Source of the DNA: an uncultured Anaerolineales bacterium
GTDB lineage: Bacteria; Chloroflexota; Anaerolineae; Aggregatilineales; Aggregatilineaceae
Assembly (NCBI GenBank): GCA_937135955.1
Contig: CAKZOB010000034.1
Coordinates: 1 to 45,841, forward strand
Direction: 5' to 3'
DNA: 45,841 bases
The notes beneath the pieces were generated by a model, which ran no database searches, was not told the origin of the DNA, and saw only the letters and a program-made list of their open reading frames with translations. Shown here piece after piece: positions 24,258-37,767 of this stretch (position 1 is its first letter; each line of letters begins with the position of its first letter). The position numbers and the translations under genes are program-made.

Positions 24258-25130
24258 TCACTTGTCGCGGGTGAGCGTGAAGCCGCTCATGAATTGCTTT
24301 TGCAGCAAGATGAAGATGATCACTGGCGGCAGGCTGACGATCACCGTGCCCAGCATCAGCGGCCCGAAGCGCAACGCGCCGCCGCCCAGGCGCAACGCCC
24401 CGATGCCGGTCTGCACTGTCTGCATGTCTGGGTCGGACATGACCAGGTTCGGCCACAGGTACATGTTCCAGGCATAGATGGTCTGCACGACGGCCAGCGC
24501 CCCAATGGTGTTCCAGCTCATGGGCACCAGCACACGGAACAGAAATTGCAACGGGTTGGCCCCGTCGAGCTGCGCGGCTTCGGATAGCTCCGCCGGTATG
24601 CTGGAGAAATGTTGGCGGAACAGGAAGGTGCCCGTGGCGCTGGCGGTGAAGGGCACGATCAGCGCCCAATAGGTGTTCTGCCAGTGCAGCTTGTTGATGA
24701 AGCGGAACAGGGCGATGATCAGCACCTCGGTGGGCATCATCAGCGTGATGAGCACAAAGCCGAAGACCAGCCATTTGCCCGGAAACCGAAAATAGACGAA
24801 CGCCAGGCCGGAGAGCAGCGAGAAGATCGTCTTGCCCAGGGTGATGCCCAGGGTCATGATCACGCTGTTGATCATGTAGGTGTGCAGATGGCGTTCGTAG
24901 AAGACCACGTGCCAGTTCTCGTGCAGCCCGCTGCCCGGCGTGAACTGATAGCGGAAGACTTCCGCGTTGGTCTGCGTGCTGACGATGAGCGCGTAGAACA
25001 GGGGAATGCCCGACATGAAGCAGGCCAGGATCAGAATGAGGTGCGCGTACCAGCGCTTGGGCCACCACCTGCGCACCTTCTGCCAGATGGCCGGTGTGAC
25101 GCGAGCGCTTTCTCGTGAAACGACTGTCAT
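24258..25130 (-). CDS. Carbohydrate-type ABC importer permease, UgpE/MalG-like
   Basis: This 290-residue permease has six hydrophobic segments and the EAA loop EAAQLDGANPLQFLFRVLVP (about 184-203) that contacts the ATPase. It belongs to the CUT1 group with MalG and UgpE. It starts four bases after the stop of the MalF-type permease, so the two form a heterodimeric channel, fed by the UgpB-like binding protein upstream. No ATPase gene follows. An MsmX/UgpC-like ATPase encoded elsewhere is presumably shared. Confidence 0.9.
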   Translation of the reverse strand: MTVVSRESARVTPAIWQKVRRWWPKRWYAHLILILACFMSGIPLFYALIVSTQTNAEVFRYQFTPGSGLHENWHVVFYERHLHTYMINSVIMTLGITLGKTIFSLLSGLAFVYFRFPGKWLVFGFVLITLMMPTEVLIIALFRFINKLHWQNTYWALIVPFTASATGTFLFRQHFSSIPAELSEAAQLDGANPLQFLFRVLVPMSWNTIGALAVVQTIYAWNMYLWPNLVMSDPDMQTVQTGIGALRLGGGALRFGPLMLGTVIVSLPPVIIFILLQKQFMSGFTLTRDK

Positions 25131-25134
25131 GGCC

Positions 25135-26331
25135 TCATACTCCGTAGGTGACCTGCCGCCCGCCCGTCCGGAACAGCACCACCGTGATGCCGATCACCGT
25201 CAGGAACAGCACGATCGATTCGGCGGCAGCCTTGCCCATGTCATTGTTCTGCACGCCTAGCTGAATCACGCGGTACATCATGGTCGTCGTCGAGCGTAGC
25301 GGGCCGCCGCCGGGCGTCAGGTAGTCAATGGTGGCATACGTCTCGAAGAAAGCATAAGTCAGGTTGGTGACGAGCAGGAAAAAGGTGATGGGCGACAGCA
25401 TCGGCCAGACGATATGCCAGAACCGCCGCAACACCCCCGCGCCGTCAATCGCGCCCGCCTCGATCAGGTCTTTGGGCACGTTCTGCAGGCCAGCGATGTA
25501 GAACAGGATATTGAACCCCATGGACTTCCACACGCTGGCCATGATGATCGTCCAGGGGGCGACTTTGGGGTCGTTCAACCAGCCCAGCTTGATGCCCAAC
25601 CATTTTCCCAAAAGATAGTTGATCAGGCCGCCCGACGGGTTGAACATCAGCAAGAAGATAATCCCCGCCACGGCTGGAGACATGGCATAGGGCCAGACCA
25701 GCAGAATCCGATAGATAGACGCACCGCGGATGGGCAGATAGGCCATGGTGGCAACCAACAGCGACAGCCCCATGCTCAGCACGACGATGAAAAAGGACAT
25801 ATACATCGTGCGCACCACGGTTTCGAAGTAAGTCTTGTCTTCCACCAGGCGGGTGAAGTTGTCCACACAGACAAAAACCTCGCGCCGCGCGCCCAGCCGC
25901 GAGAGCATGGTCGAAAGGCGCAACGTTTCCAGCGAGGGGTAATACAGGAACAGCAGCAGGATGGTGAGGGTCGGTGCGAGCAGGGGGATGGCAATCCACC
26001 AATGCCGAAACGCCCCCTGGCTTTGCTGCCCTTCTATCAGACTTTCGTGACGCAGCAGTTTGCCGCTGAGCCAGCCCAGCGGAGCCACCACGATAGCTGT
26101 GCCCGCAGCAGCCAGGATCAGCCCGAACGCCCGATCCAGTGACTCGCGCCCTGCCTCGAAGGTGCAGTAGTCCAGCGGGGCCAGGAAGAGGGCCGAACCG
26201 AACGCCCCGGCGATGGCCCCCAGGCCCAGACCCAGCAGCCAGAGTCCGCCAGCGCGTTTGAAGATGTAGGCCACCACAGCGGCCCCGATCGCTGCGCCCG
26301 CCAGCATCAGAATCACAGGAGAAACGACCAT
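25135..26331 (-). CDS. Carbohydrate-type ABC importer permease, UgpA/MalF-like, with N-terminal extension
   Basis: This 398-residue CUT1 permease has a canonical six-helix core from about residue 108 and an EAA loop EAGAIDGAGVLRRFWHIVWP (about 291-310). The first 105 or so residues are an addition: three more hydrophobic segments (about 4-24, 29-51 and 68-88) joined by a short loop. UgpA is near 295 residues, so this protein is about 100 longer. The ribosome site before the ATG is weak. A strong hairpin lies between it and the binding-protein gene. Confidence 0.88.
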   Translation of the reverse strand: MVVSPVILMLAGAAIGAAVVAYIFKRAGGLWLLGLGLGAIAGAFGSALFLAPLDYCTFEAGRESLDRAFGLILAAAGTAIVVAPLGWLSGKLLRHESLIEGQQSQGAFRHWWIAIPLLAPTLTILLLFLYYPSLETLRLSTMLSRLGARREVFVCVDNFTRLVEDKTYFETVVRTMYMSFFIVVLSMGLSLLVATMAYLPIRGASIYRILLVWPYAMSPAVAGIIFLLMFNPSGGLINYLLGKWLGIKLGWLNDPKVAPWTIIMASVWKSMGFNILFYIAGLQNVPKDLIEAGAIDGAGVLRRFWHIVWPMLSPITFFLLVTNLTYAFFETYATIDYLTPGGGPLRSTTTMMYRVIQLGVQNNDMGKAAAESIVLFLTVIGITVVLFRTGGRQVTYGV

Positions 26332-26437: not shown

Positions 26438-27790
26438 TTACGGCGCGTTCAGCAGGTTGTACTCCTCGATGATGCGGTTGGCTTCGGCCACCGCCTCGTC
26501 GAGCACCGCCTTGGGGTCGTCGTCGCTCAGCAGGACGCGGTCAATGGCCGCTGTGACCACATTGCGGATGGCCGGAAAGCCGCCCACCAGCGCGCCGCTG
26601 GTCGCCGGAGTGACCTTGCTCTGGGCGAGCTGCTGCACCGCCACCGTCTGGTTGGGCCACTGCTCGAACCAGCCCTCGCTCTCCAACAGGTCGTAGGCGC
26701 TGTAGCGGATCGGGATGTAGCCGGTGATCTTGTGCCAGTCGGCAGCGTTCTCGGTGTTGGTCAGGTAGACCAGGAAGGCCAGCGCGCCCTCTTCCACTGC
26801 CGGATCAAGGCCATCGGCCAGCCATAGGGTCGCGCCGCCGATCAGGTTGCCCGTCCAGCCGGTGTCGTCGTTGTAGGGCAGGAACGAGGCGACCGTCTCG
26901 AAGCCACCCTCGATGCCCATCTGCGTGTAGAGGGTGGTGTCGGAGCTGCTGTAGGCAGCCATGGCCACCTGCTGCGTCGAGTAGGCCTGGTCTACGGTAG
27001 ACCAGGAGTCGCCGCCCTGCGCGCCACTGTAGTACAGATAGCCCTTGTTGTAGAGATCATCCAGCCACTGCAGGATGGCCACGCCCGCCTCGCTGTTGAA
27101 GACCGCCTCGGTCGCGCGAGCCTCGCGCCCATTGCCATTGTTGACATACAGCGCGTCCTGCTGCGCCAGCCACTGCTCGAAGAACCAGCCGTGATTCGGC
27201 CAGGTGAAGCAGTATTCAGGCGCATTCTCCAGGGCCATGATCGCCTCGCAGGCTTGCTCGACCTCGTTCCAGGTCGCCGGCGGCTTTTCCCAACCAGCGG
27301 CCCGCAGGTAGTTCATGTTGGAGAACATGATCGCCGAGGAGGTATTCCAGGGCATCGAAGTCCACTTGCCGTCCAGGGTGTAGTAGGCGCGCACCGGCTC
27401 GACGAAGTCATCGAAGTCAACCGGCAGGCCGAGGATTTCGGTGCGGTCGCCCAGCGCGTCGGCGATCGGCTTGAACAGGCCGCTGTCGCGGGCGTCCTGC
27501 GTGCCAGCCTCGAAGAACTGCACCACAGCAGGCAGTTGGCCTTGCTCTGCCGCGACGGCCACCTGCGCGAACACCGTCTCGTAGCTATAGCCGCCGGTGA
27601 CGACGACTTCATACTGCGGGAACATCTCGTTGAAACGGGCGGCTACTTCCTTGGTCCAGTCCCAGCGATAATCCTGGAAGGCGATCCAGACGTCAACCTT
27701 GATCTTTTCCTGTGCGACAGCAGTCGCTCCCGGCGCAACCAACGCCAGCATCATGACCAGCACAACGGACAGAAATACGAGTTTTTTCAT
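26438..27790 (-). CDS. UgpB-like extracellular solute-binding protein
   Basis: This 450-residue family 1 solute-binding protein is closest in pattern to UgpB (glycerol-3-phosphate and glycerophosphodiesters): the C-terminal GYIPIRYSAYDL...EGWF and the ending AIRNVVTAAIDRV...AVLDEAVAEANRIIEEY are typical. It has a signal peptide (hydrophobic 5-24) cleaved near AVAQ-E and no lipobox cysteine. GAGGTGAGGAG precedes the ATG. It heads an operon with two permeases. Its promoter lies far upstream, overlapped by operator-like repeats also found at the DeoR gene, so control by that regulator is likely. Sugar, polyol phosphate or an amino-alcohol phosphate are all possible ligands. Confidence 0.9.
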   Translation of the reverse strand: MKKLVFLSVVLVMMLALVAPGATAVAQEKIKVDVWIAFQDYRWDWTKEVAARFNEMFPQYEVVVTGGYSYETVFAQVAVAAEQGQLPAVVQFFEAGTQDARDSGLFKPIADALGDRTEILGLPVDFDDFVEPVRAYYTLDGKWTSMPWNTSSAIMFSNMNYLRAAGWEKPPATWNEVEQACEAIMALENAPEYCFTWPNHGWFFEQWLAQQDALYVNNGNGREARATEAVFNSEAGVAILQWLDDLYNKGYLYYSGAQGGDSWSTVDQAYSTQQVAMAAYSSSDTTLYTQMGIEGGFETVASFLPYNDDTGWTGNLIGGATLWLADGLDPAVEEGALAFLVYLTNTENAADWHKITGYIPIRYSAYDLLESEGWFEQWPNQTVAVQQLAQSKVTPATSGALVGGFPAIRNVVTAAIDRVLLSDDDPKAVLDEAVAEANRIIEEYNLLNAP

Positions 27791-28045
27791 CTCCTCACCT
27801 CAAACAGGCTAAATGATGCGGATGGACAGCAGTGCCGAAGCACCGAGCAGAACTTTACTCTCTGCACACTAAATCCATCCTAACTGTGGGTAAAAAGAAC
27901 CTGACGATCTGGAGAACCGGGTGAAGCCCCTTTAACTTCCTCGTGTGACGCCTCCTTTCGTGCAAAATGTGTCGCCGAGGGGGTGCGCACTATGCCTGTG
28001 CAGAGAAGCAGTGCGGCGGGTACTTGTTATCCCCGACTTACCCTC
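27791..28045 (-). other. Long untranslated leader of the UgpB-like gene
   Basis: If the promoter at 28046-28074 is used, the transcript carries about 250 untranslated bases. I see a small hairpin with a TTCG loop (GTGC-TTCG-GCAC on the minus strand) and an AAAGGAGG site without a usable start codon near 27950. I recognise no known riboswitch. No other feature is visible in this stretch. Confidence 0.35.
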
Positions 28046-28099
28046 ATTGTATGCTAAAAAAGTCTCTGTGCCAACACAAGCCAACACAAAGGATGTTGG
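28046..28099 (-). promoter_or_regulatory. Sigma-70 promoter of the UgpB-like operon with overlapping DeoR-type operator
   Basis: On the minus strand TTGGCA (28069-28074) and TACAAT (28046-28051) are separated by exactly 17 bases, a good sigma-70 promoter. The plus strand at 28071-28090 is a tandem 10-bp repeat, CCAACACAAG then CCAACACAAA, that overlaps the -35 box. CCAACA (28081-28086) also pairs with TGTTGG (28094-28099). Tandem repeats at helical spacing suit a DeoR-family repressor. The same repeat occurs upstream of the DeoR gene at 33591-33610. Confidence 0.6.
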
Positions 28100-28137
28100 A
28101 TTCCGCACACGGAACGCACACCCCCTTCACGCGCTGC

Positions 28138-28902
28138 TTAGAAGTAGTTGACAGTGATGCCGCCGTCTACTACCAGGCTTGCCCCATTGACCCACGACGC
28201 CTCATCCGACGCCAGATAGAGCGCGGCATAGGCTACGTCCGGCGGCTGCCCAAAACGTCCCATGGGGATACGGCGCAGGCGCAGCATCTTGGCTTCTTCG
28301 GTGGCGAAGAGCGTCTCCATCAGCGGCGTGATGATCGGGCCGGGGCAGATGGCGTTGGAGCGCACCTTCTGCGGGCCAAATTGCACGGCCAGCGAGTGCG
28401 TCAGGGCGATCACCGCGCCCTTGCTGGCGGTATAGGCATCTTGCGGCACGGTGCAGCCCACCAGGGCCACGAACGAGGCGATATTGACCACTGCGCCGCC
28501 GCCCGCCTTGATGATCTCCGGAATGCCGTACTTGCAGCACAGGGCCACGCCCTGCACGTTGACATCAAACACGCGCCGCCAGACATCCGGCTCCATGGTC
28601 AGCACGGAGATGTCTTCGTCGGGCATGATGCCGGCGTTGTTGACCAGCGTGTCCACCTTGCCGAATTGCGCCACGCCCGCCTTGATCACCTTCTCAACAT
28701 CGGCTTCGTCGGCCACGTTGCCCGCGACAGCGATAGCCTGGCCGCCTGTCTCGGCGATCATCTGCGCCGTCTGCTCGACAGTCTGCGCGTTGATGTCGTT
28801 GAGCACCAGCCGCGCGCCCTCTCTGGCGAAGAGAAGCGCTGTCTCGCGGCCCAGGCCGCTACCCGCGCCGGTGATGAAGGCCACTTTATTTTCGAGTCGC
28901 AT
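28138..28902 (-). CDS. Short-chain dehydrogenase/reductase
   Basis: This 254-residue classical SDR oxidises or reduces an alcohol/carbonyl with NAD(P). It shows the cofactor motif TGAGSGLG (11-18), NNAG (about 88-91), the catalytic Ser in NIASF and the YTASK motif (Tyr157, Lys161). Asp36 after strand 2 (VLNDIN) favours NAD over NADP. An AAGGAG lies 13 bases before the ATG. It follows the glutamine-synthetase-like gene by 79 bases in the same direction and precedes the importer genes, so it is probably part of the same catabolic unit. The substrate is not evident. Confidence 0.88.
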
Positions 28903-28981
28903 GGTATTGTCAGCTCCTTATGGGGTAGTCCTCAGAAAGTCCAACATGAATGTTCAGGTCCCTTCATGGGCTTTGCGCCAT

Positions 28982-30379
28982 TCAAATCTGCTCGAAAAAG
29001 CGCGCGCGCTCCCAGCAGGTGACCGCTTCGTCGAATTTGCGTTGCTCGGTGCGCGCGAAGTGTAGATAGTGCTCGACCACCTCCTCACCAAAAGCCGCGC
29101 GGGCCAGCTCGCTGCGCTCGAAGGCGGCGATCGCTTCGGGCAGAGAACGGGGCACGCGCGGCAGGTCTGTCGCCAGATAAGCATTGCCTGCGAACATAGG
29201 CGGCGGCTCGGTCTTGCGCTCGATGCCGTCCAGCGCTGCCGCCAGCAACGCGGCAAACGCCAGGTAAGGGTTGGCGTCCGCGCCGGGGATGCGGCACTCG
29301 ACGCGCAGCGCATCGCCGCGCCCCACCACGCGGAAACCGGTGGTGCGGTTGTCGTAGGCCCAGGCCACCGCCGTCGGGGCGAAGGACTCGGCCTGATAGC
29401 GCTTATACGAGTTGACGTTGGGGGCGAAGAACAGCGTCAGATCGCGGGCGTGCGCCAGCATCCCGCCGACCGCCCAGCGGAACGTGTCGCTGCCCGTCAC
29501 TGGCAGGCCGTCGGCCAGGGGTCGATCCCCGGCAAAGACGTTGTGCGCGCCGTCGGCGCTCCACAGGCTGAAGTGCAGATGCATACTGCTGCCCGCGTGC
29601 CGCTCGTCCCACTTGGCCATGAAGGTGACTGCCAGCCCCTGTTGCCAGGCGACCTCGCGGGCCATCTGCTTGAAGATGACGGTGCGGTCGGCCATGGTGA
29701 GCAAATCGCAGTAGCGGATGTTGATCTCTTCCTGCCCTGCGCCCCACTCCCCTTTGCTGAACTCGACCGGCACGCCAGATAAATGCAGGTGTCGGCGGAT
29801 CGCGCCGAGCAAACCCTCGACCTTCGCGCCCTGGAACAGGTGATAGTCCTCGATGTACGCCCCGAAGGTGCGCAGGTCATGATAGTATTTGGCGCGGGCG
29901 GACTCGTAAGTCTCCTGGAAGACGAAGAACTCCAGTTCGCTGGCGCCCATGGGCAACAGGCCCGCCGCGCGCGCCCGCTCGATCTGCTGGCGCAACACCG
30001 CGCGCGGGGCGATGCTCACCAGGTCGCCGGTGTGCTCGTCACGCACGTCGCACAGTGCCAGCGCCGACCGCTCCAGCCACGACGCGCGCCGCAACGTCGC
30101 CCAGTCCACCGTCGCCCAGGCGTCGCGATACCCCTGCTCCCAACTGGCGTAGCGATAGCCCGGCACGGGGTCCATGGCCAAGTCGCAGGCCAGCAGGTAG
30201 TCGCAGAAGTGCAGGCCGTGTTCCGCCGCCTCCAGGAAGTAGCGGGCATCGTAGCGCTTGCCCAGCAATCGCCCGTAGAGATCGGGGAAAGCCACCAATA
30301 CGGTCTCGATCTCCCCGCGCTCCACAGCGTCGGCCAGTTCCGCGCGGCTCAGGGGGCTGGTCTGATGTACCTCAGTCAC
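28982..30379 (-). CDS. Glutamine-synthetase-family gamma-glutamyl ligase, PuuA-like
   Basis: This 465-residue GS-family enzyme uses ATP to join the gamma-carboxyl of glutamate to an amine. Catalytic landmarks are ELEFF (Glu148, Glu150), GEWGAGQEEIN (Glu211, Glu218), SSMHLHFSL (His267), NSYKRY (Arg327) and RTTGFRVVGRG...VECRIPGADANPY (Arg345 to about 371). The HLH and NSYKRY forms and the lack of a GlnA-type adenylylation loop fit gamma-glutamylpolyamine or gamma-glutamylethanolamide synthetases rather than housekeeping GlnA. The start is GTG 30379, preceded by AGGAG, and overlaps the AOR stop (GTGA), so the two proteins are coupled. The amine substrate is unknown. Confidence 0.85.
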   Translation of the reverse strand: MTEVHQTSPLSRAELADAVERGEIETVLVAFPDLYGRLLGKRYDARYFLEAAEHGLHFCDYLLACDLAMDPVPGYRYASWEQGYRDAWATVDWATLRRASWLERSALALCDVRDEHTGDLVSIAPRAVLRQQIERARAAGLLPMGASELEFFVFQETYESARAKYYHDLRTFGAYIEDYHLFQGAKVEGLLGAIRRHLHLSGVPVEFSKGEWGAGQEEINIRYCDLLTMADRTVIFKQMAREVAWQQGLAVTFMAKWDERHAGSSMHLHFSLWSADGAHNVFAGDRPLADGLPVTGSDTFRWAVGGMLAHARDLTLFFAPNVNSYKRYQAESFAPTAVAWAYDNRTTGFRVVGRGDALRVECRIPGADANPYLAFAALLAAALDGIERKTEPPPMFAGNAYLATDLPRVPRSLPEAIAAFERSELARAAFGEEVVEHYLHFARTEQRKFDEAVTCWERARFFEQI

Positions 30380-32289
30380 CGTTTATCTCCTGGGGCGCAG
30401 GGCGCGCGCTCTAGTTCGTCGGCCACCCAGCCGAGGCCCAGCTCTTCCAGTTTGACGCGGCTGGGGGTGCCGGTCATCACGTCCCAGCCGGCCATGGCAT
30501 AGTAAATGTCTTTAGCGCGCTCGAATTCCTCGACGGTCACGTACAGGCCATCGCTGGCCCCGCCGCGCAGCGGTTTGGTGAGCTTCTTGGGCAGGGTGTC
30601 TTGGTCGCGCCCGAAGCCCTCGCGGGCGTTGAAGGCGCGTAGCATATTCAGGCGACGCTCGCCCAACTTCTGCAACTCGAAGACCGTCACCGACCAGCCC
30701 GTCACCGCGCGCACCAACTCGGCCATCTGCCGCAGGCTGAACAGTTGCCAGTCTGGCCCCCACACGAACTGACACAGGCTGAGCGTATCGAGGGCGCTGT
30801 AGGTGCACTGTGTGTAGAAGGCATAGCGCACTTTTTCGGCATTGAGGACAGTAGACGGCTGCGGATTGAGCAGCCCCAGTTCGGCAATGCGCGGGTTGAA
30901 CTCGGTATAGCTGCCGTCGTGCTCGCTGGACATGTGATCCGCGCCGAAGGGGTTGACGCCGTAGATGAGCGCCAGACTGCGCTTGAGTTGCGGCATATGC
31001 GCGGGCATTTCCGACCCCTTGACGGTAATCAGCAGGTCTTCTGCCGCCGGGCCAAAGCGCCGCGCGGCGATGGCCGAGCCGTCGGCCAGCACATCGCCGA
31101 AACCCTCGCGGCGGGCGATCATTTCGGTCAGGCGCACCATGGCTTCGGCGTTGCCGAAACGCAGATCGAGGCCGCCGGTGTCGGCCTGCGTGATGATGCC
31201 CTGCTCGTAGCAGTCCATGGCCCAGGCGATCGTCGCGCCACAGGAGATGGTGTCCATGCCATACATGTTGCAAAGCTGATTGGCGTAAGCGACGGCCTTG
31301 AGGTCGGCGACGCCACAGTAGGTGCCGAACGTGCTCAGCGTCTCATACTCCGGCCCGCCGTAGATGGGATCGAGCGGGTAGGGGCCGTCGTGACTTTCGA
31401 CCACGCGCTTGCAGCGCACCGTACACGCATAGCACGTGTCGGTTTCCTTGAGGATCGTCTGGCGCATCGTCTCGCCACTGAGGGCATCGTAGCCCTCAAA
31501 GACGCCGCTGGCGTAGTTGAAAGAGGGCAGGCCGCCGCGATGTTGCTGCTTGCGGATGAGCGCCGTCGTGCCCAGCAGGGTCATGCTGCCCATGATGTCC
31601 TCGGTGTTGTCTGCGCCCCAGCGAGCCAACGCCTTGAACGCTTCCTGATCGAAGACCTGCGGGCGTTGCCGGCCACGCACCACGATCGCCTTGAGGTTCT
31701 TGCTGCCCATCACCGCGCCCATGCCGGTGCGCCCGTTGGCGCGGTTGGACATGTTGATCATCGCCGCAAAACGCACGCCGCGCTCGCCCGCCGGGCCGCA
31801 TTGCAACACCTGCACGCGCCGGTCGCCCAACTCGTCTTCGATGGCGCGCTGTACGTCGTGTGTCACCCGCCCCCACAAGTGCGAGGCATCGCGCAGTTCG
31901 GCTTCGCCGTCGTGAATCCACAGATAGACTGGCTTGTCGGCACGCCCCCAGATGACGATGCCATCGAAACCGGCGAATTTGAGTTCGGCGGGCCAGAAGC
32001 CGCCGCACTGCGAGTCGCCGACCATGCCGGTGAGGGGCGAACGTGCCGTAGCGCTCATACGGCTCTGGCCGGAGATGGGCACACCAGTCACCACGCTGTC
32101 CATCAGCGCTAGGGTGTTTTCTGGAGCGAGCGGATCGGTGCCGGGAGGCGTGTTTTTCAGCAGGTAATACAGCCCCATGGCGCTGCCGCCCATGTAGGTG
32201 CGGTAGAAGATTTCGTCCGGCTCTTCGACAGTCAGGCTGCCAGTGCTCAGGTTGACGTGTAAGATTTTGCCGTGATAGCCGTAAGGCAT
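30376..32289 (-). CDS. Tungsten-type aldehyde:ferredoxin oxidoreductase
   Basis: This 637-residue AOR-family enzyme carries a W/Mo bis-pterin and a [4Fe-4S] cluster and oxidises aldehydes to carboxylates with ferredoxin. Cluster ligands are Cys286, 289 and 293 (CYACTVRC) plus Cys506 (DTLSLCQF), in the same places as in Pyrococcus AOR. The N-terminal domain with GGSAMGLYYLL (34-44), RSPLTG (83-88) and NRANGRTGMGAVMGSKNLKAI (182-202) is typical pterin-binding sequence. The enzyme is oxygen-sensitive in known cases, which suggests anaerobic metabolism. AAGGAAGG precedes the ATG. The gene heads an operon with the GS-like ligase and the SDR. Confidence 0.93.
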   Translation of the reverse strand: MPYGYHGKILHVNLSTGSLTVEEPDEIFYRTYMGGSAMGLYYLLKNTPPGTDPLAPENTLALMDSVVTGVPISGQSRMSATARSPLTGMVGDSQCGGFWPAELKFAGFDGIVIWGRADKPVYLWIHDGEAELRDASHLWGRVTHDVQRAIEDELGDRRVQVLQCGPAGERGVRFAAMINMSNRANGRTGMGAVMGSKNLKAIVVRGRQRPQVFDQEAFKALARWGADNTEDIMGSMTLLGTTALIRKQQHRGGLPSFNYASGVFEGYDALSGETMRQTILKETDTCYACTVRCKRVVESHDGPYPLDPIYGGPEYETLSTFGTYCGVADLKAVAYANQLCNMYGMDTISCGATIAWAMDCYEQGIITQADTGGLDLRFGNAEAMVRLTEMIARREGFGDVLADGSAIAARRFGPAAEDLLITVKGSEMPAHMPQLKRSLALIYGVNPFGADHMSSEHDGSYTEFNPRIAELGLLNPQPSTVLNAEKVRYAFYTQCTYSALDTLSLCQFVWGPDWQLFSLRQMAELVRAVTGWSVTVFELQKLGERRLNMLRAFNAREGFGRDQDTLPKKLTKPLRGGASDGLYVTVEEFERAKDIYYAMAGWDVMTGTPSRVKLEELGLGWVADELERAPCAPGDKR

Positions 32290-32351
32290 GACTTATCCTT
32301 CCTTAAATGAAAAAGGCAAGCGATACGGGGAGAGCGCGTGCTTTGCGATTT

Positions 32352-32371
32352 CCGAAGTCTCGTAGACTTTG
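32352..32371. repeat. Short palindrome of the ACTTCCGAAGT type
   Basis: CCGAAGTCT (32352-32360) pairs with AGACTTTGG (near 32363-32371) over nine pairs with one wobble and a short loop. The sequence is related to the terminators at 2119-2158 and 21671-21704. It lies upstream of the AOR gene, next to the second MITE-like copy. Confidence 0.4.
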
Positions 32372-32382
32372 GGCGTTTGACC

Positions 32383-32599
32383 AGCCAGAGCAGCAGGGTC
32401 ATCGCATCAAAACCAGCCAGCAGAACCATGGGCAGAAGTAAGCGCAGGTGTGATCTGCTGGTTGACCTCACCCCCACTCGGCGCTGGCGCGCCTCGTTGC
32501 CCCCTCCCCGCGTCGGGGAGGGGGCTAGCCGAGCGAAGCGAGGCTGGGGGTGAGGTAAAGCGGCAAGCGGTTTGATGCAATCCTCCTGGCCAGAGCAGT
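32383..32599 (-). mobile_element. MITE-like non-autonomous element, copy 2, with 12-bp flanking repeat
   Basis: The element is 32395-32587 (193 bp), inverted relative to copy 1. Read on the minus strand it starts AGGAGGATTGCATCAAACC and ends GGTTTTGATGCGATGACCCT. The flanks AGCCAGAGCAGC (32383-32394) and GGCCAGAGCAGT (32588-32599) match at the inner ten of 12 bases, at exactly the same offset as the perfect 12-bp duplication of copy 1. It is longer by about 29 bp of CCCTCCCCG...CGGGGAGGGGG hairpin in the middle. It sits between the divergent AOR and amidotransferase genes. Beyond it, 32290-32382 and 32600-32680 show no gene and only weak promoter-like sequence. Confidence 0.75.
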
Positions 32600-32680
32600 G
32601 AGTAGTATTTTTGGCGCACATGATGTATTTTCGAATCCACACAAATCTTGTTCGATGCTGTTTGAAAGGTAACAAGCCTT

Positions 32681-33547
32681 ATGTACAAAGACCTGCCCCT
32701 CGCCATCGCCATTCTCAACGGCTATCCCAGAGCCAGCCGCGAGCGCTTCGACGCTGCTGACGTCGGGCACCCGCACGACATGTACGCCCGCTTCGTGCGC
32801 TCCTACGTCCCGCAGGCCACCATTGACGTGCTCTTCATCGCCGACCTGGATAGTGCCCTGCCCAGCGGGGCCAACCTGCGCTCCTACGACGCTTATATCT
32901 GGACTGGCTCCGACCTGACCATCTATCACACCGACGATCCCCGGGTCACCCGCCAGGTGGAGCTGGCCCGCGCTATCTACGAAGCGGGTGTACCTTGCTA
33001 CGGCAGTTGCTGGGGTATTCAGATGGCCGCCTATGCCGCCGGTGGAGAAGTGCGCAAGAACCCCAAAGGCCGCGAATGGGCCATCGCCCGCCGCATCACG
33101 CGCACCGAGGCCGGTCGCACACACGCCTTGCTGCGCGGCAAGCCGGACGTTTACGACGGCTTCATCATGCACCTGGACGAAGTCGTCACTCTGCCGCCCG
33201 GCGCTACCCTGCTGGCCACCAACGAACATACCCATGTGCAGGCGTTGGAAGTCAAACACAAGAACGGTGTCTTTTGGGCCACGCAATACCATCCGGAGTA
33301 CAATTTCTATGAGATGGCCCGCCTGATCCGCGCCCGCGCCGAACCACTTGTTAAAGAAGGTTTCTTCGCCACCACCGCTGACGTACTGGCCTACGCCGAA
33401 GCCATGTTTGCCCTGCACGAGCGCCCCGACGATCCGGCGCTGCGCGCGCGCTTCGCCGTCGGGCCGGATATCCTCGACCCGCTCTATCGGGAGGCCGAGC
33501 TACGCAACTGGTTCGATCATCTGGTAATCCCGTCGCGGCGACATTAG
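32681..33547 (+). CDS. Class I glutamine amidotransferase-like hydrolase
   Basis: This 288-residue protein has a GATase1 fold with the catalytic triad visible: Cys110 in YGSCWGIQM, His204 and Glu206 in QYHPEY. It is a stand-alone glutaminase-type domain like those annotated GMP-synthase-like, and it could hydrolyse a gamma-glutamyl amide, as PuuD does with gamma-glutamyl-GABA. It has about 60 extra C-terminal residues. AAAGG lies 11 bases before the ATG. It is divergent from the AOR-GS-SDR operon and followed by the DeoR gene. The role in gamma-glutamyl removal is inferred from this context. Confidence 0.8.
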   Translation: MYKDLPLAIAILNGYPRASRERFDAADVGHPHDMYARFVRSYVPQATIDVLFIADLDSALPSGANLRSYDAYIWTGSDLTIYHTDDPRVTRQVELARAIYEAGVPCYGSCWGIQMAAYAAGGEVRKNPKGREWAIARRITRTEAGRTHALLRGKPDVYDGFIMHLDEVVTLPPGATLLATNEHTHVQALEVKHKNGVFWATQYHPEYNFYEMARLIRARAEPLVKEGFFATTADVLAYAEAMFALHERPDDPALRARFAVGPDILDPLYREAELRNWFDHLVIPSRRH

Positions 33548-33578
33548 GACGATCGCCGTGCAGCACAGGTGATGACGC

Positions 33579-33650
33579 TTTGTGTCTATTTCAACACAAA
33601 TCAACATAAAATGCAACACGCTCGTGTTGGTAAATTGACACGAAGTGTCA
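33579..33650 (+). promoter_or_regulatory. Operator cluster upstream of the DeoR gene
   Basis: Four repeats are packed here: TTTGTGT (33579-33585) inverted with ACACAAA (33594-33600); the tandem decamers TCAACACAAA and TCAACATAAA (33591-33610); the perfect inverted repeat CAACACG-CT-CGTGTTG (33614-33629); and TGACAC-GAA-GTGTCA (33636-33650). TAAAAT at 33607-33612 could be a -10 box, but no good -35 fits. The tandem decamer repeats that at 28071-28090, so autoregulation by the DeoR protein and shared control of the importer are likely. Confidence 0.6.
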
Positions 33651-33669
33651 GTGCCGAAAGGCAAATGAT

Positions 33670-34452
33670 ATGAACGCAATCGAACGCCAGAAGATCATCT
33701 TGCAGATCATCTCCGAACAGGGCGCGGTGACCGTCGCCGAACTCTGTGAGCGTTTCGGCGTCTCCGACATGACCATCCGGCGCGACCTCTCGACGCTGGA
33801 ACGCGCCAGCCTGCTGCGGCGTATTCACGGTGGAGCGGTCAGTGCGCGCGGGCGCAGCTACGAGCCGCCCGTCCTGACGCGCGTGCACGAAGCCCCTGAG
33901 GCCAAACGTGCCATCGGCAAGCTGGCGGCGACACTGGTACACGAGGGCGACAGCATCGCCCTGGACATCGGCACTACCACGCTCGAACTGGCCCGCAACC
34001 TGACCCGCCTGCAAGACATCACTGTGTTGACCAATAGCCTGCCCATCGCCAACCTGCTCACCGATCAGCCGGGCATCCGGCTGATGTTGTGCGGCGGCAT
34101 TGTCCGCCCCGGTGAACGCTCGCTCATCGGGCCGGTCGCCGAGTATACTTTCAGTCAGTTCTATGTGGACAAAGCCTTCATCGGCATTGGCGGGGTAGAC
34201 CTGGAAGCGGGCCTGACCGAGTACAACACGGACGACGCCGAAGTCAAACGTACCATGATCCGCAATGCGCAGCGCTGTATCTTGCTGAGCGATAGCCGCA
34301 AGTTCGGATTGAAGACTTTTGCCAGCGTTGCGCCGCTATCCGTGGTGGACGACATCGTCACCGACGACGGTCTTAAGCCAGAATTCCGCGAAGCCCTGGA
34401 ACGGGAAGGCATCGTCGTGCACATCGCCCATGTGACCCATCATTCACCCTGA
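33670..34452 (+). CDS. DeoR-family transcriptional regulator
   Basis: This 260-residue DeoR regulator has an N-terminal helix-turn-helix (about 5-57) with VTVAELCERFGVSDMTIRRDL and RRIHGGA, and a DeoRC sensor domain (about 75-235) with the sugar-phosphate site DIGTTT (about 99-104), TNSLPIA and GGIVRPGERSLIGP. Family members respond to phosphorylated sugars or polyols such as glycerol-3-phosphate. This fits control of the UgpB-like importer, whose promoter carries the same tandem CAACACAA repeats as this gene's own upstream region. The ATG is preceded by GAAAGG. Confidence 0.92.
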   Translation: MNAIERQKIILQIISEQGAVTVAELCERFGVSDMTIRRDLSTLERASLLRRIHGGAVSARGRSYEPPVLTRVHEAPEAKRAIGKLAATLVHEGDSIALDIGTTTLELARNLTRLQDITVLTNSLPIANLLTDQPGIRLMLCGGIVRPGERSLIGPVAEYTFSQFYVDKAFIGIGGVDLEAGLTEYNTDDAEVKRTMIRNAQRCILLSDSRKFGLKTFASVAPLSVVDDIVTDDGLKPEFREALEREGIVVHIAHVTHHSP

Positions 34453-34494
34453 GAAAGCTTGCCTCGCGCGCACCGGAGAGACCCATACACACCC

Positions 34495-35301
34495 ATGATC
34501 AGCAAAACACTCCTGGTTATTTTCGATGGCTGCCGGCCCGATGCTCTGGCTCAGGCCCATACCCCACACGTTGATCGGCTGTGGCAGAACGGAGCCTATA
34601 CCTGGGGAGCGCAATCGGTAGTGCCCAGCTACACCCTGCCCGCCCATATGTCCATGTTTCGCGGCGTGACACCCGAACGGCACGGCGTCACTGATAACGT
34701 CTTCCAGCCGTCGGCGGTGGCCTACCCCAGCTTCGTGGACATTGCGCATCAGCACCGGCGGCATACGGCCATGTTCTATAGCTGGGAACAACTGCGCGAC
34801 CTATCCGCGCACGGCAGCCTGACTGTCAGCTATTGCCGCGACGGGGCAGTGACGCCCGATGCCGATCAGATCGTCGCGGCGCAGGCTGCCGACCTGCTCG
34901 CCCGCGAGCGCCCCGACCTGCTGGTGGTCTACCTGGCCGAATCCGACCTGGTGGGGCACGCGGCGGGATGGATGTCCGCCGCCTATCTGCAGGCCATCGA
35001 GCGCATGGATGAGGCGCTGGGGCTGCTGCTGGCGACGCTGGACGAAGCAGGTCTGCGCGAGGAGTACACGGTGCTCTTTCTCTCCGATCACGGCGGGCAC
35101 GAGCACACGCACGGCACAGGATCGCCGGAAGACCTGACCATTCCCTGGATACTCTGCGGGCCGGGGATCAAAACCGGGCACACCCTGACGACGCCGGTGC
35201 GCATTTACGATACCGCCGCCACGATTGCCCATCTGCTGGGCATTCCCCGCCCTGACGTATGGGAAGGGCAGCCGATCTGGGAGGCATTCGACCGTGCCTG
35301 A
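34495..35301 (+). CDS. Type I phosphodiesterase / alkaline-phosphatase-superfamily enzyme
   Basis: This 268-residue protein belongs to the nucleotide pyrophosphatase/phosphodiesterase branch of the alkaline phosphatase superfamily. Two-metal residues are visible: Asp11 (IFDGCRPD), the nucleophile Thr47 (PSYTLPAH), Asp151 and His155 (ESDLVGHAAG), Asp198 and His199 (LSDHGGHEH), with a further His near 204-206. No signal peptide is seen, so it acts in the cytoplasm. ATG 34495 is chosen because the family starts here, although its GGAGAG is about 14 bases away; a TTG at 34459 is less likely. It follows the DeoR gene by 42 bases and overlaps the MFS gene by eight. A phosphodiester or phosphonate linked to the DeoR pathway is possible. 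Confidence 0.85.
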   Translation: MISKTLLVIFDGCRPDALAQAHTPHVDRLWQNGAYTWGAQSVVPSYTLPAHMSMFRGVTPERHGVTDNVFQPSAVAYPSFVDIAHQHRRHTAMFYSWEQLRDLSAHGSLTVSYCRDGAVTPDADQIVAAQAADLLARERPDLLVVYLAESDLVGHAAGWMSAAYLQAIERMDEALGLLLATLDEAGLREEYTVLFLSDHGGHEHTHGTGSPEDLTIPWILCGPGIKTGHTLTTPVRIYDTAATIAHLLGIPRPDVWEGQPIWEAFDRA

Positions 35302-36559
35302 TTTCCTGGCGTGGCGGCAACGGCTGCCCGCCGAACAGGCCCTGCACATCATCGGCCTGGGGGTGGCTGTCTCACTGTTGGGCGATCTGACGCTATATGT
35401 GGTGTTGCCCACGCACACCACAGACGCTGGCATTGCCCTGGCCAACGTCGGGCTGATGCTCTCCGCCAACCGGCTGATCCGCATTGTCCTCAACGGGCCG
35501 CTGGGCGTGCTGATCGAGCGCATCCCCCGGCGGCGCATTGCCGTGCCAGCGCTGTTCTGCGGCGGGCTGTCCTCGCTGCTCTATACGATCCCCGGCTTCT
35601 GGCCCCTGTTGATCGGGCGGCTGCTGTGGGGCATCTCGTGGGCGGGCATCTGGCTCAGCGCCAGCACGATGGCGCTCGATCTCTCTACTTTCGCCAATCG
35701 CGGGCGTTTTGTGGGCCGCCTGCAGATGTGGTTTTTCATTGGATCGGGGGGCGCGTCGCTAGTTGGCGGGGCGCTGACCGACTGGCTGGGCTATTTGCAG
35801 GCGCTGCGCGTCTGCTCGTTGATCACGCTGGCGGCGGCGGTGGGCTGGTGGCTGGCTCTGCCGGAAACGCAACCGACGCGCGCGGCAGTCGCCAGGGGCG
35901 CGCCCTCCACGGTGCCGGGCACGCCCGTTCCGCCACCCCGCAACCGCCTGCCGCTGGCCATGGCCATTGCCCTGCTGGGCGTCAACTGGCTGATCTTCAT
36001 CGGCATCCTCAGCGCGGTCTTGCCGCTGTTGTTGCAGGAGCGCGTCGGCGAGACGGTGCACCTGGCGGGGACGGTCATCTATCTATCTACCTTCACCGGC
36101 GCGATGGCAGCGGGCAGTCAGGCGCTCAGCCTGGTTGCGTCGCCGCTGGCGGGCTGGCTCTCCGACCTCAGCGGGGAGCGCTGGCGGCTGGTGATCGGCG
36201 CGCTGGCCCTGGGCGTGATCGCCATGGCCCTCACGGCGGGCGGGCGGGGCGTGGTGGTGGTGACAGCGATTATGCTCGGAGCGATCGCCACCAGCGTCCT
36301 GCAGACACAGGTGATGACGCTGGTGGGCGATTATGAGGGCGAAAACAATCGCGGGCGCATCCTGGGCATCATCAACACCGTGGGCGATGTGGGCAGCGCC
36401 GCCGGCCCGTTGATCGCCTATGCGCTACTGCCCCTGGTAAGCATCGGCGGGCTGTTCTGGCTGGCGACGGCCATGCTGGGCGCGGCTTTGCCCGGCGCGT
36501 GGTGGGTCGCCCGCCAGGAAGCGCAACGTCTGCGGCTGGCCCATACGCCGCCCGTGTAG
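35294..36559 (+). CDS. MFS transporter
   Basis: This 421-residue protein has about 12 hydrophobic segments with a central hydrophilic loop (about 195-220), typical of MFS carriers. The loop 2-3 motif is weak (IERIPRRRIAV). I chose GTG 35294, which has GGGAGG nine bases upstream and overlaps the phosphodiesterase stop by eight bases; the in-frame extension upstream is shadow of that gene. The overlap suggests a shared pathway, for example import of a phosphodiesterase substrate or export of its product. The substrate is unknown. Confidence 0.85.
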   Translation: MPDFLAWRQRLPAEQALHIIGLGVAVSLLGDLTLYVVLPTHTTDAGIALANVGLMLSANRLIRIVLNGPLGVLIERIPRRRIAVPALFCGGLSSLLYTIPGFWPLLIGRLLWGISWAGIWLSASTMALDLSTFANRGRFVGRLQMWFFIGSGGASLVGGALTDWLGYLQALRVCSLITLAAAVGWWLALPETQPTRAAVARGAPSTVPGTPVPPPRNRLPLAMAIALLGVNWLIFIGILSAVLPLLLQERVGETVHLAGTVIYLSTFTGAMAAGSQALSLVASPLAGWLSDLSGERWRLVIGALALGVIAMALTAGGRGVVVVTAIMLGAIATSVLQTQVMTLVGDYEGENNRGRILGIINTVGDVGSAAGPLIAYALLPLVSIGGLFWLATAMLGAALPGAWWVARQEAQRLRLAHTPPV

Positions 36560-36617: not shown

Positions 36618-37235
36618 TCACGGCAGCGGATCGTAGTAGCGCTCCCCGGCACAGGCCCGGCATAGTACCATGCCCTCGTGCACGATCTCGCGCTCATTGA
36701 TGATTTCCTCGCCGCACACTTCGCAGGTCACGCGCCGCCCCGGTTTGCTCAACAGCGCCTCCAGCGAGACGCGCAGCGTCACCGGACGGGCGATCAACAG
36801 TTCGTCGTCCGGCATGATCTGATAGGCGGCGAGCTGCGCGTGCCAGCGACTGCGCGCATCCGGCGCATAGTGCGCGGCCAGCGTCCGGCTGTGCGGGCTG
36901 GGGGTCACGCGCACGGCGCGTTGGGTTTCCACGTCCACCAGCGTCACCGCCACCTTGCCGAAGTCAATCACGCGCAGGGTGCGGTGTCCCACCGAGCAAC
37001 CGGTCGCCACGGAGACACCATCCGCCGCGCAGCCGTCCGTCTCCACGAAGGCCAGCAGCCGCTTGCCGGTCTGCGGCACGTCCAGCCCCAGTAGACGCCC
37101 TCCCAGCAACCCCATGCGCACGCCGAGTACCTGGCGCGGGCACAGGTGCGCGTGCAGCGCGGCGCACTGCTCCAGCAGGGCGGCCAGGCGCGCGTCGGCC
37201 AGAACGGGGCGGGGGGGCGGTGTCGGGCGGGCCAT
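36618..37235 (-). CDS. FmdE-like protein with C-terminal zinc ribbon
   Basis: This 205-residue protein resembles FmdE (formylmethanofuran dehydrogenase subunit E), a family known from molybdenum/tungsten enzyme operons in archaea and found in many bacteria without methanogenesis. It shows HAHLCPRQVLGVRMG (28-42), ETDGCAADGVSVATGCSVGH (65-84) and a C-terminal CEVCGE...VLCRAC zinc ribbon. ATG 37235 has AAGGAG nine bases upstream. It is the last gene after cytochrome b, multihaem cytochrome c and Rieske genes, 13 bases after the Rieske stop. Its role there is unclear; metal or cofactor delivery is a guess. Confidence 0.8.
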   Translation of the reverse strand: MARPTPPPRPVLADARLAALLEQCAALHAHLCPRQVLGVRMGLLGGRLLGLDVPQTGKRLLAFVETDGCAADGVSVATGCSVGHRTLRVIDFGKVAVTLVDVETQRAVRVTPSPHSRTLAAHYAPDARSRWHAQLAAYQIMPDDELLIARPVTLRVSLEALLSKPGRRVTCEVCGEEIINEREIVHEGMVLCRACAGERYYDPLP

Positions 37236-37248
37236 GATGTGTTCTCCT

Positions 37249-37767
37249 TCAGGCAATCAGACGGTCGTCGGGGTGAGTTTCGCGATCGCGGTGAATGATC
37301 AGGTTGCCCGTGCTGTCGAGTTCCACCGCCAGGTAACGCAGGCCGCGCGGCGCTGGCCCGCTGATCCGCTCGCCCTGAGCGTCGTAATGACTGTTGTGGC
37401 AGGGGCATTCGAAGCCGAGCAACGGCGAGTTCTGGCCATCTCCGACGGCGCGCACCAGGCAGCCCAGATGTGAACATACCGCATCCAGCGCGTAGAAACC
37501 CAGCGCGTCGCGCACCAGATAGGCGCGCACATCGCGCACGAAAGTCAGGCTGGGCGCGGCATAGTCTTCGGGTTTGCCGGCGGTCGCGCTTTCGGGCGGC
37601 TCTGGCTGAGACGAATGCGCCATCATCTGCGCCGCCTCGCCCGCGGCCAGCGCGCCCGTCGCGGCCAGCAACGCTTTGCGCAGTCCGGTGAACAGTTTGC
37701 GGCGGCTCAGCGGCTCCACGTCTTCTTCTCCTGGCCACTCATTCTCGTTCGTAGGCATGGCACACAT
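37249..37767 (-). CDS. Rieske [2Fe-2S] protein with Tat signal
   Basis: This 172-residue Rieske protein transfers electrons from quinol oxidised at cytochrome b. The Tat-type leader SRRKLFTGL (21-29) precedes a hydrophobic segment (about 31-45), which would serve as membrane anchor. Cluster ligands are Cys98 and His100 (CSHLGC) and Cys121 and His124 (CPCHNSH), with Cys103-Cys123 as the stabilising disulfide. ATG 37767 lies inside the cytochrome c gene, overlapping its last haem codons; an ATG three codons later is also possible. It forms a quinol-oxidising unit with the cytochromes upstream. Confidence 0.92.
   Translation of the reverse strand: MCAMPTNENEWPGEEDVEPLSRRKLFTGLRKALLAATGALAAGEAAQMMAHSSQPEPPESATAGKPEDYAAPSLTFVRDVRAYLVRDALGFYALDAVCSHLGCLVRAVGDGQNSPLLGFECPCHNSHYDAQGERISGPAPRGLRYLAVELDSTGNLIIHRDRETHPDDRLIA

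Follow-up and report, generated by a model that had tools for sequence, protein, structure and literature searches.

We analyzed a 45,841-nucleotide stretch of contig CAKZOB010000034.1 from an uncultured Anaerolineales bacterium of the phylum Chloroflexota (hereafter the window), in which the gene of an aldehyde:ferredoxin oxidoreductase family protein (AOR) overlaps that of a glutamine synthetase (GS)-like ligase. The locus is probably a catabolic module for ethanolamine, presumably delivered as glycerophosphoethanolamine (GPE), with a ferredoxin-linked AOR step. The results suggest a variant of the known gamma-glutamyl pathway for ethanolamine in which aldehyde dehydrogenase (ALDH) has been swapped for AOR at one step, and no such coupling was found in print. 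This proposal was built by comparing gene content, conservation, residue patterns and the mutual exclusivity of AOR and ALDH; the individual reactions, the substrate, the metal and the use of ferredoxin are predicted from these.

In the proposed route, a UgpB/A/E-type importer would take up a glycerophosphodiester, probably GPE from membrane lipids, and a phosphodiesterase (a PF01663 protein here, a GDPD protein in some relatives) would free ethanolamine or phosphoethanolamine. The GS-like ligase would join ethanolamine to glutamate at the expense of ATP, and the alcohol group of the resulting gamma-glutamyl-ethanolamide would be oxidized to an aldehyde by a short-chain dehydrogenase/reductase (SDR) using NAD(P). 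AOR would convert the aldehyde to gamma-glutamyl-glycine and pass two electrons to ferredoxin, replacing an NAD-linked ALDH, and a hydrolase of the class I glutamine amidotransferase (GATase) fold would release glycine and recycle glutamate. The published ethanolamine route comprises a ligase, an alcohol dehydrogenase, an ALDH and an amidohydrolase, and such a route by glutamylation is present in Chromohalobacter salexigens, according to the available parts of PMC10132767 and PMC6529630. An earlier note, made from the letters of this DNA, had instead modelled its proposed variant on the putrescine (Puu) pathway; the variant is better placed in the ethanolamine route.

The ligase and the aldehyde step

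The best sequence matches of the ligase in the Protein Data Bank (PDB) were 11zs (466 bits) and 5dm3 (403 bits), after which the score fell to 159 bits; 5dm3, which bears only the title 'L-glutamine synthetase', is presumably Csal_0679 of C. salexigens. In a quick GS tree of 113 rows, some of them on long branches, the window GS grouped with 5dm3 and with Streptomyces rows (SH-aLRT 98), which are GlnA4-like judging from their gene order, and E. coli GlnA and PuuA fell outside this group. The tree excludes four distant GS sequences; because duplicates had been dropped under other names, only three of its rows bore the AOR label, and the label counts were not used. The window GS, when aligned with GlnA and PuuA of E. 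coli, retains the six metal residues E129, E131, E212, E220, H269 and E357 and five arginines (R321, R339, R344, R355 and R359). The position of the ammonium-site residue E327 was occupied by Phe in the window GS, 5dm3, a Streptomyces protein (locus L093) and a Bipolaricaulota protein (locus L041), by Tyr in PuuA, and by Glu in two other GS genes of the window's genome. As stated in the available part of PMC6529630, E327 is essential for glutamine synthesis, and GlnA4 has F331 at the same position. The active-site argument was based on E327 because the columns of D50 and S53 were poorly aligned. Given the solved relatives, the change of E327 to Phe and the grouping in the tree, the window GS most likely attaches a gamma-glutamyl group to an organic amine, for which ethanolamine is the best candidate. 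Assignment as PuuA or GlnA was ruled out by the NCBIfam scores, the tree and the active site. The earlier description of the enzyme as PuuA-like did not strictly hold, as it scored 185 bits with NCBIfam GGputSyn, for which the cut-off is 650.

As for AOR, Pfam recognized the two AFOR domains at 396 and 245 bits, and the best PDB matches were 9mqx (383 bits) and 1aor (378 bits). The protein kept T243, E313 and H448 (Pyrococcus numbering), which are conserved in tungsten oxidoreductases according to section 5 of PMC13328260 in its available part, as well as four cluster cysteines, and had His in place of Y427; this His was found in all 42 subfamily rows that were compared, eight GS-linked and 34 not. 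Judging by the AFOR domains and by the W-pterin and [4Fe-4S] ligands, AOR is a member of the WOR family, and this membership would imply the use of tungsten or molybdenum and of ferredoxin. No gene for a second subunit was noticed beside AOR. An in-frame TGA (selenocysteine) in the AOR homologues of two other genomes (G358 and G425) was considered and rejected, as only the terminal stop was present.

The occurrence of AOR and ALDH was compared at 123 loci (the window, L034-L153, L260 and L261), of which 115 were distinct; these were the nearest GS matches and hence a non-random sample, and many contigs were short. The ALDH queries formed a single BLAST cluster (56 proteins), whose member from locus L043 was checked with Pfam; a Streptomyces ALDH served as query in a separate comparison of gene order. 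Within 5 kb of GS, AOR was found at 9 of the 115 distinct loci, ALDH at 71, both at none and neither at 35. ALDH was thus present at 0 of 9 AOR loci and at 71 of 106 others (Fisher p 1e-4, with kinship uncorrected and the nine AOR loci amounting in effect to two lineages). Among the 71 of 115 loci that extended 5 kb to both sides, five had AOR, 49 had ALDH, none had both and 17 had neither. ALDH also lay within 5 kb at three of the 12 AOR loci that had wide flanks and no GS; the two genes can thus be neighbors, and the lack of joint GS loci does not come from a general mutual avoidance. An SDR match (E <= 1e-20) was within 5 kb of GS at 89 of the distinct loci; the order was GS-ALDH-SDR at Streptomyces loci and amino-acid permease-ALDH-GS-SDR-GATase in Leptolyngbya (L043). 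The window itself contained the E327-less ligase, an adjoining SDR gene and a hydrolase gene with the expected fold and triad, and no adjoining gene for an NAD-linked ALDH. At these loci AOR occupies the ALDH slot of the gamma-glutamyl module, and the absence of any locus with both enzymes lends support to the earlier suggestion that AOR carries out the aldehyde step.

Conservation of the gene set

GS matches were found in 63 genomes, of which 40 were examined with wide flanks together with G043, a genome of another family; the genome-contig scan covered the best 80 of 93 relatives. Close GS genes were present in 8 of 18 genomes of the window's family (71-100% identity), and the same eight genomes contained the GATase gene (75-100%). 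Seven of these eight also contained AOR (79-100%), although the AOR/GS pair was split over two contigs in one of them (G010), and in G043 the GS, AOR and GATase genes were all present on split contigs. At E <= 1e-40, GATase was found in 9 of 151 genomes including the window's own, namely the eight family genomes and G043, and a close AOR (74-100% identity) in eight of the nine. The co-occurrence of AOR, GS and GATase is beyond chance.

Among 100 Bipolaricaulota genomes, GS was found in three and the AOR/GS pair in two (G549 and G635). Their loci (L041 and L260, respectively) had the order DeoR-UgpB-UgpA-UgpE-GDPD-GS-AOR-GAT-SDR-HAD and, further on, a GlpQ-like gene, which in L041 comes after one extra open reading frame (ORF). 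A search with the L043 ALDH gave no match in either genome at E 1e-30. No match was found for the flank of locus L228 in the gene-order comparison. In the AOR trees (the first of 59 of 67 rows, the second of 39 of those plus L260), the GS-linked AORs of Chloroflexota and Bipolaricaulota stood in separate places, and a single clade was weakly rejected (approximately unbiased test, AU p 0.04), a value that is generous because the tested group was named after the first tree had been seen. AOR has probably joined the module twice, once in each phylum.

The earlier note had made its proposal depend on the GS not being a plain glutamine synthetase and on the AOR/GS pair being conserved in relatives. 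The tree and the active site set the enzyme apart from plain GS, and the pair was kept in both phyla as described, with one same-genus genome lacking AOR. The interpretation given in that note is supported and largely right, with the substrate now defined more sharply.

Hydrolase, importer and locus layout

In the GATase, C110, H204 and E206 were invariant across 12 aligned sequences, and rows 1-7 of a Foldseek search with the structural model (pLDDT 92.5) were Arabidopsis gamma-glutamyl peptidase 1 with identities of 18-20%, a fold match that fits hydrolysis of gamma-Glu-Gly. The best PDB matches of the binding protein were the UgpB proteins of E. coli (161 bits) and Phaeobacter (149 bits), followed by Mycobacterium UspB/UgpB at 48-49 bits, and the three importer proteins matched UgpB, UgpA and UgpE best, all below the NCBIfam equivalog cut-offs. 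The available part of PMC12718374 describes nine UgpB ligand residues and reports that the pocket shrank and a Trp pair arose from glycerophosphocholine-binding relatives toward UgpB. Eight of the nine residues were identical throughout an alignment of 12 rows, which represent 11 distinct proteins because the window's own was entered twice. The GS-linked binding proteins have Asn, Met or Leu in place of Trp188, which belongs to the clamp that encloses the glycerol moiety of small ligands; each of the two Bipolaricaulota clusters has a second binding protein in which this residue is Trp. In those clusters, a GlpQ-like gene and a second UgpB/UgpA set, including this binding protein with the full Trp clamp, adjoin the GS-AOR cluster (L041 12259-16522; L260 16077-19495).

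The gene of the PF01663 protein, whose best PDB match by sequence was ENPP1 (62 bits), adjoins DeoR in the window and was not mentioned in the earlier note. The same adjacency was found in G002, G003, G004, G005 and G014, and in G043 the gene follows the importer. A GDPD match lay by the cluster in G010, G014 and three Bipolaricaulota genomes, and was checked with Pfam in G014 and G549. A phosphodiesterase-type gene was thus in or beside 11 of 12 clusters, and the contig of the twelfth (G001) ends early. GlpQ together with a HAD glycerol-3-phosphate phosphatase is a known pair for head-group recycling. On the basis of the Ugp-like importer residues and the phosphodiesterase genes, we predict GPE to be the imported substrate.

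The features of the locus are listed in Table 1. The ORFs, Pfam matches and sequence agreed with the earlier reading of the gene positions, of the four-base AOR/GS overlap (30376-30379, GTGA on the minus strand, with the GS start over the AOR stop), and of the SDR and UgpB-type importer genes that follow. They also confirmed the Cys-His-Glu triad and the strands, the GATase and DeoR genes being divergent from the AOR-GS-SDR-importer genes.

Table 1. Genes of the predicted ethanolamine module and its surroundings in the window
Feature	Position	Strand	Basis
AOR (aldehyde:ferredoxin oxidoreductase family), predicted gamma-glutamyl-aminoacetaldehyde oxidation	30376-32289	-	Pfam AFOR_N/AFOR_C, PDB matches
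GS-like ligase, predicted gamma-glutamyl-ethanolamide synthetase	28982-30379	-	Gln-synt_C 319 bits; GTG start
SDR, predicted gamma-glutamyl-ethanolamide (alcohol) dehydrogenase	28138-28902	-	adh_short_C2 227 bits
UgpB-type substrate-binding protein	26438-27790	-	PDB matches, ligand residues
UgpA-like permease	25135-26331	-	NCBIfam best UgpA 238 bits, cut-off 335
UgpE-like permease	24258-25130	-	NCBIfam best UgpE 198 bits, cut-off 297
Class I GATase fold hydrolase, predicted gamma-glutamyl-glycine hydrolase	32681-33547	+	PF00117; triad C110/H204/E206
DeoR-family regulator (AgaR/SrlR/GlpR-like), predicted local repressor	33670-34452	+	DeoRC and HTH_DeoR; NCBIfam best AgaR 209 bits, cut-off 260
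PF01663 alkaline-phosphatase-superfamily protein, predicted head-group release	34459-35301	+	Phosphodiest 119 bits
ORF labelled MFS transporter by eye, after the phosphodiesterase gene	35225-36559	+	ORF; homologues adjoin the cluster in G002, G003, G004, G005 and G014

The DeoR protein is a likely repressor of the module. A repeat of the form CGAAAATAC-N-CGAAAAATAC, read on the minus strand and imperfect in the window, lies upstream of GATase at approximately 32602-32635, as counted by hand, and is kept in five genomes of the genus; it is a candidate DeoR operator. An operator common to all was considered and rejected, as the aligned divergent regions yielded the CGAAAATAC-type repeat in those five genomes and no palindrome present in every one. 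The AOR/GATase divergent region (32290-32680) also contains a CTCACCCCC...GGGGGTGAGG element that looks like a small dispersed repeat; it is present in G001 and G002, partly in G003, and absent in G004 and G005. Further along, positions 36618-37256 encode an FmdE-domain protein with a weak C-terminal match to a dksA/traR-type zinc finger (Pfam).

Alternative explanations and known systems

Several observations weigh against the reading of the locus as a ferredoxin-linked ethanolamine module, and some of these concern the substrate. GS-family ligases take varied amines. A sister GS group of the same order (L132, L133, L118 and L125) has Trp at the E327 position and an adjoining SDR; L132 lies near inositol-like genes (TPP-enzyme, GFO/IDH/MocA, AMP-binding and MR_MLE) and L125 near a PhyH gene. 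Substrates therefore vary within the GS family, and these Trp-type loci perhaps serve a different gamma-glutamyl amine route, possibly that of an aminocyclitol. For the binding protein, the pairwise alignment set Ser against Y64 of UgpB, which was one residue off; in the multiple alignment the neighboring Tyr takes this position. The model of the PF01663 protein (pLDDT 80.8) had the fold of the AlkP superfamily, with sulfatase, NPP and ENPP6 rows in a fold search and sulfatases on top; PF01663 alone separates neither diesterase from monoesterase, and the fold search also leaves a sulfatase. It is conceivable, if unlikely, that the same ferredoxin-linked gamma-glutamyl route serves another amino-alcohol such as serinol, aminopropanol or another glycerophospho-linked amine, in keeping with the variation among these ligases, the neighbors of L132 and the PfkB and KduI/IolB family genes that follow the importer genes in G003 (L137 1524-3434). 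Arguing for ethanolamine instead are the Phe that the window GS shares with the ethanolamine enzymes, the fit of the UgpB residues to a glycerophosphodiester, and the fact that ethanolamine is a common amine head-group.

Other observations concern AOR itself. The same-genus genome G003 kept GATase, GS, SDR, importer and phosphodiesterase with no AOR and no ALDH near GS, so AOR is dispensable there, and three ALDH-like genes elsewhere in that genome could perform the aldehyde step. The window's genome contained five ALDH-like genes elsewhere (34-42% identity to the query) and two more AORs. In the third GS-bearing Bipolaricaulota genome (G550), GDPD-GS-GAT-SDR were found on a 4.8 kb contig without AOR or ALDH, the ALDH search covering that contig only; other AORs of this genome were at 37-39% identity. 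Neither enzyme was found at the 35 GS loci mentioned above. Many Chloroflexota had members of the AOR subfamily (54-67% identity) with no GS match in the loci at hand, most of which had flanks of about 1.5 kb, and GS was likewise absent at the 12 AOR loci with wide flanks mentioned above. At three loci (L184, L230 and L234), the subfamily occurred with class III aminotransferase and ALDH genes or matches, the ALDH of L234 being truncated at the end of the locus and more than 5 kb away, and saccharopine-dehydrogenase-like genes were also found in this set; these loci perhaps represent another AOR-linked route for an amine or amino acid. Its members are therefore not confined to a single pathway. 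We nevertheless consider it improbable that AOR is a passenger or a general aldehyde detoxifier, with the aldehyde step left to an ALDH from another part of the genome, which may be the case in G003. Such a role is at odds with the four-base overlap with GS, with the lack of ALDH at all nine AOR loci, and with the separate joining in Bipolaricaulota, in which the ALDH query had no match.

Two further explanations are disfavored. A variant of the Puu pathway would share the chemical logic of a ligase, an aldehyde oxidation and a GATase hydrolase, but it is highly improbable in view of the separation of the GS from PuuA, its low GGputSyn score, the Ugp-like importer and the SDR beside the ligase. 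Moreover, no FAD-dependent gamma-glutamylputrescine oxidase or other amine oxidase was present among the 10 window proteins scanned with Pfam, the other ORFs and the genome not being searched. That an ordinary glutamine synthetase merely stands beside unrelated sugar and aldehyde genes seems still more remote: the GS fold and catalytic residues are present, but E327 is lost, two E327-bearing GS genes lie elsewhere in the genome, and the module recurs in two phyla. The ferredoxin-linked ethanolamine module remains our preferred explanation. It retains part of what the earlier note had expected of the substrate, an amino-alcohol or polyol amine: the amino-alcohol is retained, and the relatives of the GS together with the genes for glycerophosphodiester use point more narrowly to ethanolamine. 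Of the SDR acting on an alcohol or an amine-derived group, the alcohol step stands and already belongs to the known ethanolamine route.

If correct, this assignment would provide a specific, testable physiological role for one AOR subfamily, none having been found for it in print; according to the available part of PMC13328260, enzymes of defined physiological role occur in only five of 92 tungsten oxidoreductase clades. It would also point to the use of phospholipid head-groups by anaerobes, with the energy of aldehyde oxidation kept as reduced ferredoxin, and to the exchange of ALDH for AOR at a single step of an established pathway, which seems to have happened twice. In a broader picture, to which we give even odds, anaerobic Chloroflexota and Bipolaricaulota would feed on GPE from dead cells and draw low-potential electrons, in the form of reduced ferredoxin, from ethanolamine carbon, the soluble gamma-glutamyl route would shield a toxic aldehyde without a microcompartment, and AOR would have been recruited twice independently.

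In agreement with the earlier note, no description of AOR coupled to gamma-glutamylation was found in the open-access literature among the matches listed, nor any apparently relevant paper there on aldehyde ferredoxin oxidoreductase jointly with ethanolamine. PMC5023235, which carries AOR and gamma-glutamyl terms, concerns methanol and methylamine in its available part, and the main text of PMC13328260, as far as available, had no word-start match for glutamine synthetase, gamma-glutamyl, amine, Chloroflex or Anaerolinea. The window AOR resembles the tungsten AOR family (Pyrococcus AOR 1aor; classes in PMC13328260, available part) in both AFOR domains and the conserved residues, and differs in the His at Y427 and in having a gamma-glutamyl ligase as its operon partner. 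The E. coli Puu pathway has gamma-glutamylation, conversion of aldehyde to acid and a GATase-fold hydrolase in common with the window, in which the ligase lies outside the PuuA group, no ALDH is beside GS and the importer is different. The ethanolamine ammonia-lyase (Eut) pathway would act on the same predicted substrate, but it was rejected for this organism, as no match to EutB was found in the window's genome. UgpBAEC/GlpQ scavenging is matched by the importer subunits of the window and by the GDPD, GlpQ-like and HAD genes of the Bipolaricaulota clusters, but here the genes are clustered with an ethanolamine route and the binding protein is without one clamp Trp. The closest likeness was to the gamma-glutamyl ethanolamine pathway of C. 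salexigens, Agrobacterium and Phaeobacter MED193 (PMC10132767) and of Streptomyces coelicolor GlnA4 (SCO1611-1615; PMC6529630), which, in the available parts of these papers, shares the Phe-type GS ligase, an alcohol dehydrogenase (an SDR in Streptomyces), an aldehyde oxidation and a gamma-glutamyl hydrolase. The window differs from it in having AOR in place of ALDH, and a UgpABE-like importer with a phosphodiesterase in place of the TRAP ethanolamine transporter of Phaeobacter.

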